In this document: positions 36,760 through 37,934 of the stretch, one piece after another
How the letters are laid out: the number at the start of each line of letters is the position of its first letter
Numbering within the stretch: the first letter of the stretch is position 1
Source of the DNA: Crocinitomicaceae bacterium TMED114
GTDB lineage: Bacteria > Bacteroidota > Bacteroidia > Flavobacteriales_D > Sanyastnellaceae
DNA: 64,000 nucleotides
Reading direction: 5' to 3'
Assembly: GCA_002172485.2 (NCBI GenBank)
Contig: NHFP02000003.1
Location: 87,318 to 151,317 of the forward strand
Program-made: the position numbers and the translations under genes
The notes under the pieces: generated by a model
What the model saw: the letters and a program-made list of their open reading frames with translations, nothing else
The model's database searches: none
Told to the model about the DNA's origin: nothing

Positions 36760-37218
36760 TCAGTCTAATCCGGCAAAAGCCCGCACTGCTGCCACACCCG
36801 ACTCCACCGGACTGTCCGTGGTGTCCAAGTCGAGGTAATCGGATTCCGGTGCCCCATACTCGTCGGAATGAAAGTGCTCGCGCCCCCGGACTTCAGTGGT
36901 GTGCACGAAGACCTCTTTCACGTTGGTCCGCGCTTTGAATTCTTCCCGCAACCAACGAAATGGCGCCACAACGGCCACAATGACCACTTGGCCCTGCCGG
37001 CTCAAGTACAATGCAATGTCCTGGGCACGGCGGATATTGGCCTCCCGGCCTGCCGCACTGTAATCGGCATTGGCAGTCAGCGCCCGAAGGTCATCGCCGT
37101 CCACCATGAACACAGGATGACCGGCCTCCTGCAGGTCCGCCTTCAAGGCGCGTCCCAGGGTGGATTTTCCCGCGCCGGGTTGTCCAGTGATCCAAATGAT
37201 GGGGCTGCCTTCGGCCAT
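36760..37218 (-). CDS. cysC: Adenylylsulfate kinase
   Basis: 152 residues. Walker A GQPGAGKST at 12-20, then DGDDLRAL, NIRRAQDIALYLSRQGQVVIVAVVAPF and VHTTEVRGREHFHSDEY, matching APS kinase. It phosphorylates APS to PAPS for sulfation and sulfur assimilation. The protein is somewhat shorter than the usual ~190 residues but keeps the core. The TATCTTTA box 6 nt before ATG 37218 supports this start over the upstream ATG at 37251. First gene of the cysC-DUF2061-cysD-cysN operon; no cysH or cysIJ is in the window. Confidence 0.93.
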   Translation of the reverse strand: MAEGSPIIWITGQPGAGKSTLGRALKADLQEAGHPVFMVDGDDLRALTANADYSAAGREANIRRAQDIALYLSRQGQVVIVAVVAPFRWLREEFKARTNVKEVFVHTTEVRGREHFHSDEYGAPESDYLDLDTTDSPVESGVAAVRAFAGLD

Positions 37219-37232: not shown

Positions 37233-37354
37233 CGGCCTCCTTTGGGCGCATTTCTCGACTGGAGCACCGAGGGATGCAGACCGAAATCAAACTTTTTTTT
37301 CGCCCCTAAACCATTGATAAACAGCACTTTGTGAGATTCCTGTGGTTTTTTTTT

Positions 37355-37483
37355 CATCGGATTGTAACCCCAAGGGACCGGCTGTAGTAAAGAGACATGG
37401 TTTTGGTTACAGCCGCTCCCGCAAGGGAACAGGCGATTTGGTGAAACGAAGGGGTCCTCGAACGCGAGGACCCTTTCCATTTT
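37355..37483 (+). ncRNA. Candidate structured RNA with three hairpins
   Basis: Non-coding interval between cysC and the DUF983 gene. Three helices in order on the plus strand: (1) CGGCTGTA (37378-37385) with TACAGCCG (37407-37414), perfect 8 bp, ~21 nt loop; (2) TCCC-GCAA-GGGA (37416-37427), a GNRA tetraloop; (3) GGGTCCTCG-AACG-CGAGGACCC (37452-37473), 9 bp, followed by TTTCC. GTAACC at 37363-37368 can pair with GGTTAC at 37404-37409, which overlaps helix 1, so two exclusive folds are possible. No promoter is clear and strand is uncertain; a match to a known RNA family was not recognised. Confidence 0.4.
37452..37480 (+). terminator. Possible terminator hairpin at the end of the candidate RNA
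   Basis: 9 bp perfect stem with an AACG loop, followed by TTTCCATTTT on the plus strand; on the minus strand it would follow the DUF983 gene but the following bases (CTTCGTTTC) are a weaker T run. It could serve either strand. Confidence 0.45.
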
Positions 37484-37505: not shown

Positions 37506-37934
37506 TCAGGCCTTCCCTTCTTCCGATGTACCGCCCCGATCACCATACCGGAGGAACATGTGAATCCAAATGGAGCGGCTCAATCGCTGCAAGGGGGGCA
37601 ACAGCAACACCAAGGTGACGATGCCACTGATGAGGAACACCTCAGGCTGGTCAAAAAACCCCGTGAAGGTGATCCAGCCCAGTGCACCAAAAGTGTACAA
37701 GGCGACCAACACGGCCACCCAGAGCGCCACTGTCAACGCATAACTCACATACGCTGCGCCGAAATAGAAGCCCGGCTCCCGCTCGAAGTCGGCTTGGCAC
37801 GCCGGACAGGCCGCATGCATGGCGTTGATGGTCCGAGGCCGGTAAGGGTTCCGAACTTGAAACAAGCGCCCCTCACGGCAGGCTGGACAGCGGTTCACCA
37901 GCACATTGGCCAACAAGGGGCGGGGACGTTGCAT
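37506..37934 (-). CDS. DUF983 family protein
   Basis: 142 residues. The N-terminal NRCPACREGRLF and CPACQADFE zinc-ribbon-like motifs are followed by two membrane segments and a C-terminal hydrophobic part. This is the DUF983 pattern, frequent in Bacteroidota and alphaproteobacteria; function unknown. The ATG at 37934 lies 4 nt after TATTTTTG, so the mRNA is likely leaderless. Downstream lies the candidate structured RNA. Confidence 0.9.
   Translation of the reverse strand: MQRPRPLLANVLVNRCPACREGRLFQVRNPYRPRTINAMHAACPACQADFEREPGFYFGAAYVSYALTVALWVAVLVALYTFGALGWITFTGFFDQPEVFLISGIVTLVLLLPPLQRLSRSIWIHMFLRYGDRGGTSEEGKA

Follow-up and report, generated by a model that had tools for sequence, protein, structure and literature searches.

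An RNA that is conserved, covaries and ends in an intrinsic terminator is encoded between cysC and a DUF983-like gene in the window (the whole 64,000-nt stretch of DNA that was analysed), and it recurs within one family of Flavobacteriales whether the gene upstream of it is cysC or one resembling a DAHP synthase. We consider it probable that the element is the gene of a regulatory small RNA (sRNA) of about 145 nt, transcribed independently from the plus strand, acting in trans and belonging to a new family. A reading of the sequence alone had described three hairpins with mutually exclusive pairings at this place, as seen in riboswitches and some sRNAs. The second of these suggestions agrees with what was found: the element covaries, ends in an intrinsic terminator on the plus strand, is shared by several genera and, in some of the rows, is preceded by a promoter-like block. 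Features are collected in Table 1; the 5' end of the sRNA gene (37337) is an estimate derived from the position of the promoter-like block.

Table 1. The element, its parts and the flanking genes (window positions)
Feature	Position	Strand	Remarks
cysC (APS kinase)	36760..37218	-	PF01583, 81 bits; divergent neighbour
Promoter-like block, TTGATAAACAG-CACTTTG	37314..37331	+	In relatives CTG-N5-CAG, then often TTT(A/G)
Small RNA gene, putative transcript	37337..37483	+	R1 match 37360-37479, 52.4 bits
T tract	37346..37354	+	A tract in several same-genus relatives
GUAACC box	37364..37369	+	GNAAC(C/U) in relatives; complementary to GGUUAC at 37405-37410
GUAAAG	37387..37392	+	Most relatives have GUANAG or GUAAUAG; frequently the loop of a hairpin that varies
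Conserved motif 1, GGUUUUGGUU	37399..37408	+	Exact in 18/19 BLAST-found loci
Hairpin 2	37412..37434	+	GCC/GGC 37412-37414/37432-37434 plus UCCC-GCAA-GGGA (GCAA hairpin) 37417-37428
Conserved motif 2, AGGCGAUUUGGUGA	37431..37444	+	UUUGGUUA in some relatives; exact in 18/19 BLAST-found loci
Intrinsic terminator	37448..37477	+	13 bp, AACG loop
DUF983-like gene	37506..37934	-	Pfam PF06170, 22.1 bits, just below the cut-off of 22.6; convergent

Folding, covariation and strand

The element lies in the gap between the start of cysC (~37218, minus strand) and the stop of the DUF983-like gene (37506, minus strand). All of the pairings listed in the sequence-only reading exist, but helix 1 (CGGCUGUA at 37379–37386 with UACAGCCG at 37408–37415), the GCAA hairpin and the GTAACC/GGTTAC pairing sit one base further downstream than it had placed them. 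The 9-bp terminator-like hairpin at 37452–37473 is positioned as described and forms part of a 13-bp helix that includes one G-U pair (37448–37460/37465–37477). When the 129-nt stretch was folded, the plus strand gave −62.5 kcal/mol (z −7.4) and the minus strand −52.4 kcal/mol (z −5.2), with none of 200 shuffles as good in either case. A perfect 9-bp helix (loop up to 20) was obtained in 7 of 1000 shuffles; one or more perfect 8-bp helices with loops of up to 40 arose in 42 of 1000, so that helix 1 taken alone is mildly unusual at most.

Conservation within the genus was assessed in an alignment of 13 rows (A5), which omits L015, L016 and L021, cut by contig ends, and the most divergent copy, L017. 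The GCAA hairpin and the terminator are whole in all 13 rows, and the GUAACC/GGUUAC pairing is whole in 11, with five of its six pairs in the remaining two. Helix 1 is whole in the window copy only, 2 to 6 of its 8 pairs being found elsewhere; L017, once added to the alignment, shows by eye four of the eight pairs and a GCAA hairpin short of one pair. Since helix 1 is intact in the window alone, the competing folds are private to the window sequence: they are present there as described, but the competition is not kept in the genus. A protein frame running through the homologues, a possibility that the earlier reading had raised against itself, was not seen, as no reading frame is conserved. 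The plus-strand 15-codon frame ATG..TGA (37397–37444) begins with ACG instead of ATG in 4 of 13 rows, and a 151-aa minus-strand ORF contains in-frame stops in 6 of 13 rows. A different minus-strand frame is open across the 129 nt in 11 of 13 rows; it is not taken as a gene because 129 nt is too short.

Covarying pairs in homologues, the check that had been proposed, were found as two-sided changes in hairpin 2 and in the terminator. Alignments comprised 35 of 37 distinct elements (A1, two cut by contig ends being omitted), 20 of 21 rows from outside the genus (A2, aligned with MAFFT, one near-duplicate omitted) and 27 matches from 26 chosen loci (A4, fitted to the model). On A2, two-sided changes occur in 10 of 34 named pairs compared with 3.7 in shuffles, and 91% of cells are paired compared with 30–58% after the partners were slid. 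On A4, an alignment of a kind that favours its own structure, all 6 pairs in the inner stem of hairpin 2 show two-sided changes, as do 11 of the 13 terminator pairs. The terminator cells include 308 Watson-Crick pairs, 35 G-U, no A-C and 7 others; the 35 G-U against no A-C pairs indicate that the RNA strand is the plus strand. For hairpin 2 the counts are 3 G-U and 8 A-C, and it does not decide the strand by itself. Helix P1 (AACC/GGUU) is kept, but it shows no two-sided change on A2. A further hairpin 5' of motif 1 is seen in single rows with shifted stem registers; on A2, 66% of its cells pair and one of its four pairs changes on both sides.

The most conserved parts of the RNA are its two UUUGGU motifs, both located upstream of the terminator. 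The single misses of motif 1 and motif 2 (Table 1) correspond to the two halves of one genome's copy, split by contig ends. In rows recruited with the sequence pattern, identity in both conserved stretches is guaranteed by construction; five loci found by the model alone (L079, L080, L082, L083 and L085) carry GGUUUUGGUU and AAUCAGGCGAUUUGGU exactly in 5 of 5 cases. The motifs vary in distant relatives, for example L106, L100, L089, L088 and L094.

The divergent orientation of the upstream gene in the genus suggests that the RNA is probably transcribed from a promoter of its own. An exact CTG-N5-CAG stands 46–51 nt upstream of the GNAAC box in fewer than half of the rows listed (20 of 45), and the window is not among them; the list omits one box-less row and rows truncated upstream, and includes a chance match (L103). 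The block bears a loose likeness to TAnnTTTG as given in PMC9723704. Between the promoter-like block and the RNA core lies a homopolymer tract that is T-rich or A-rich, depending on the relative, at the same place.

Distribution and gene neighbourhood

BLAST searches with the window element detected it in 16 of 17 same-genus genomes and in 3 of 43 others (19 of 60 relatives), and a pattern of the two conserved stretches retrieved 36 loci in named genome records. These records are labelled Flavobacteriales, Bacteroidetes, Bacteroidia or Crocinitomicaceae, with one 'bacterium' and one Chryseobacterium gleum, although the contig and coordinates of the latter correspond to those of a genome belonging to the window's family. 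A covariance model, R1, was built from 20 rows, all outside the window's genus, and recovers the window copy (Table 1). Among 399 order genomes, those in which R1 scores at least 50 bits number 52, all of them in the window's family (f1) and spread over six genera; 31 of the 52 hold none of the rows used to build R1, and 21 hold one. At E up to 0.01, R1 matched 65 of the 399 genomes, 62 in f1 and 3 elsewhere, and these last three look like chance terminators. R1 misses 2 of 17 genomes of the window's genus (G003 and G011), some family genomes of other genera are without a match (e.g. G034 and G103), and some genomes have more than one relative of the RNA.

A second model, R2, was searched against 395 genomes of the class and matched 13 of them at E up to 0.001, two of these in f1; under its strict filters, this search missed G027, which carries the RNA. 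The 11 matches outside f1 appear to be terminators after gene ends and were taken as chance for the main RNA, so nothing convincing was met outside the family among the 395 class genomes. Weak matches of R1 and R2 within the family are a mixture, some having the 5' box and loop (L088, L089, L090, L094 and L164) and others the 3' module only, and for this reason the 37 of 40 genomes matched at E up to 0.01 do not represent a count of the main RNA. Viral contigs (searched with two patterns) and plasmids were without a match. In one of the 11, L230 (G043, family f8), UUUGGUUUUGGUUUG stands directly 5' of a terminator, perhaps a sign of a wider spread of the module.

No Rfam 15 family matched the window element at E up to 10, which makes the family new to that library. 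Among 11 relatives searched at E up to 1, the only matches above cut-off were tRNAs; below cut-off were Phe_leader (L088 and L089), rdlD, Plastid-ycf2, ctRNA_p42d and c-di-GMP-II. Six array loci searched at E up to 0.1 gave none. A limited literature search met no published mention of the RNA, and in one part of it the listed papers lacked the term DUF983.

DUF983 genes were found at 32 of the 36 pattern loci, always convergent with the RNA, which they adjoin in 31 cases and from which they lie ~1.5 kb away in L038. Three of the four loci without DUF983 are cut short, and the fourth, L044, carries an ABC gene in its place. On the other side, cysC adjoins the RNA in 12 of 36 pattern loci, all from the window's genus. 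Nine loci inspected from other genera have a plus-strand gene upstream that, judging from translations read by eye, resembles a fused DAHP synthase/chorismate mutase. The idea that the element is the distal leader of the sulfate operon is thus not supported, as these nine loci have the DAHP synthase-like gene instead of cysC and retain the RNA.

Mode of action and competing explanations

For a trans-acting RNA, transcription would start just 3' of the promoter-like block, near 37337, and the hairpins would stabilise the molecule while keeping its two UUUGGU motifs open. These motifs, common to other sRNA-like loci of the family, would be contact sites for a partner, which could be an RNA-binding protein common to the whole sRNA set or ACCAAA-containing mRNAs, repressed or stabilised through pairing. 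One UUUGGU motif can be masked by the 5' AACC box, which may modulate it in this way.

A search of six genomes for complements of the 14-mer with one mismatch gave hits scattered over unrelated places, with no kept target. In 464 kb of the window's genome, ACCAAA showed no enrichment close to start codons (1 compared with 1.9 expected; 331 sites), a test of little weight because the start calls showed no initiation signal, indicating poor gene calls. As to proteins, Hfq was found in none of 16 genomes and no RRM protein in four of four genomes of the window's genus (G000, G001, G007 and G010), while RRM proteins were detected in 11 of the 12 genomes tested from elsewhere in the family (11 of 16 overall). 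With neither Hfq nor an RRM protein in the genus, no known chaperone can be named, and the absence of RRM proteins there means that the Bacteroides RbpB model cannot simply be transferred.

CsrB-type RNAs titrate an RNA-binding protein through repeated motifs, and the element might likewise sequester a protein by its UUUGGUU repeats with no pairing to mRNA. The two UUUGGU motifs of the RNA, the three in a related locus (G027:C1:2059540) and the sharing of the module by several loci with unlike 5' parts are consistent with sequestration. Nevertheless, we regard it as doubtful: the 14 nt over which motif 2 is conserved exceed what a protein site of this type should require, the main RNA has two motifs only, and the Hfq and RRM searches described above yielded no candidate protein. 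Alternatively, the constancy of DUF983 as a neighbour could mean that the element serves this gene in cis, overlapping the 3' end of the convergent transcript as an antisense RNA or a terminator. A cis role is unlikely, given that DUF983 was not found by tblastn in relatives L106, L089 and L094 (3.2 to 4.1 kb each), that the most conserved parts are upstream of the terminator, and that the G-U pairs of the terminator are on the plus strand.

Could the element be the 6S RNA of the lineage, imitating an open promoter? In its predicted fold the window copy is a rod with a 14-bp closing stem, and 6S-Flavo (RF01685), an RNA of similar length from Flavobacteria, matched in none of 18 genomes, leaving their 6S RNA unaccounted for. 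However, the rod and closing stem are absent from the relatives folded and are not kept in the alignment, some genomes hold more than one relative, and Rfam gave no match to the element. In 150 genomes of the order there were two 6S-Flavo matches, both in another family and below cut-off, and the element differs in sequence and fold from these weak matches. We therefore consider a 6S RNA very improbable. Hardly any credence is left for a riboswitch or leader, either of a plus-strand gene or, on the minus strand, of the cysC operon, a reading that is largely contradicted already. In its favour are the competing folds in the window, the sulfate genes downstream on the minus strand, and the overlap of L088 and L089 with sub-threshold Phe_leader matches (28.9–37.4 bits, gathering threshold 55). 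Against it, the gene that follows on the plus side, DUF983, is convergent, cysC is adjacent in the window's genus only, the switch involving helix 1 is not kept, and the terminator G-U pairs set the strand as plus.

A 3' module shared with other sRNA-like loci

Further loci that resemble sRNAs, some of them in tandem, also carry the 3' module (UUUGGUUAA and the terminator). R2 drew in tandem pairs from the same genus that have different 5' hairpins but end in GGCAAGCAAUUUGGUUAAG and an AACG-loop terminator; by eye, these pairs follow the end of a glutamate-dehydrogenase-like gene. The window's own genome has a module copy at G000:C3:135040-135081 (minus strand). A module pattern placed before AACG-loop terminators gave 10 matches in six genomes searched, three of which have it, and none in the reversed control; three of the six are the genomes where the module was first noticed. 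A looser pattern gave 16 matches in 16 genomes compared with 4 in the control, two of the 16 being the main RNA (G018 and G153) and two (L199 and L200) apparently accidental. In 400 kb of G027, TTTGGTTA precedes 3 of 59 terminators (0.04 expected), two of these cases having been known before this stretch was picked. For G000 (464 kb), TTTGGTT precedes 0 of 54 terminators and TTTGGT 2 of 54 (0.29 expected). That the module is a general terminator signal was ruled out, as just 3 of 59 G027 terminators are preceded by TTTGGTTA. In G027, a one-contig genome of another genus, the RNA with its CTG..CAG block heads a tandem array.

Going beyond the probable sRNA assignment, we tentatively suggest that the family may possess a private sRNA network, a possibility that is still rather speculative. 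Its members would have unlike 5' parts, some in tandem with their own promoters, and the shared UUUGGUUAA and AACG-loop terminator would be the docking site of an undescribed sRNA-binding protein, Hfq not having been found in these bacteria, nor an RRM protein in the window's genus; the window element would be a strongly conserved member with two motifs. Many Bacteroidota are without Hfq, and to our knowledge sRNA regulation in Hfq-less bacteria is little understood. A structured, family-wide sRNA with a recurring 3' module offers a defined bait for a partner search, and the loci would make up a first sRNA set for a group represented here mostly by metagenome assemblies.

Intergenic sRNAs with paralogues are a known kind, as PMC11697453 documents for FopS and GibS of Bacteroides thetaiotaomicron. 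As described there, these are also Bacteroidota sRNAs with several paralogues per genome, in which a shared, conserved single-stranded stretch is followed by an intrinsic terminator; by comparison, the main RNA here has additional structured parts. According to that paper, the RRM protein RbpB binds FopS, which has been deposited in Rfam (PMC11697453). The element differs in coming from a genus where four of four genomes gave no RRM protein, and its lack of an Rfam 15 match weighs on FopS only if release 15 holds FopS. The Rfp sRNAs of Flavobacterium psychrophilum (e.g. Rfp18) come from the same order and, according to PMC9723704, are independently transcribed, partly structured, conserved intergenic RNAs. 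They were compared with the element by this description; the element's family is without a convincing match beyond its own taxonomic family in 399 genomes of the order.

Several further loci resemble the RNA in part. In two other genera (L154, G021:C28; L164, G027:C1:781260-782064) the main RNA heads a tandem array, the later units of which differ in their 5' parts and have the same 3' module. A second sRNA-like locus, L215:15032-15150 (G000:C3, minus strand), also seen in L151, L152 and L153, is tandem in the three same-genus genomes read; besides two hairpins and boxes resembling TAnnTTTG, it has the module AAUUUGGUUAAG (UUUGGUGAAG in the window's own genome) before an AACG-loop terminator. 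Upstream of tandem units in L151, L152, L154 and L191 are partly palindromic CCTACA/TGTAGG-like boxes, which could be a candidate binding site of a regulator. Finally, L158:965-1096 and L159:1971-2104, from two genomes of another genus, combine a GNAACC box, a UUUGGUU motif and a terminator with a hairpin, CCCCGUAAUGG or CCCCGUUAAGG, and the relative in L159 follows what appears by eye to be the end of a tRNA.
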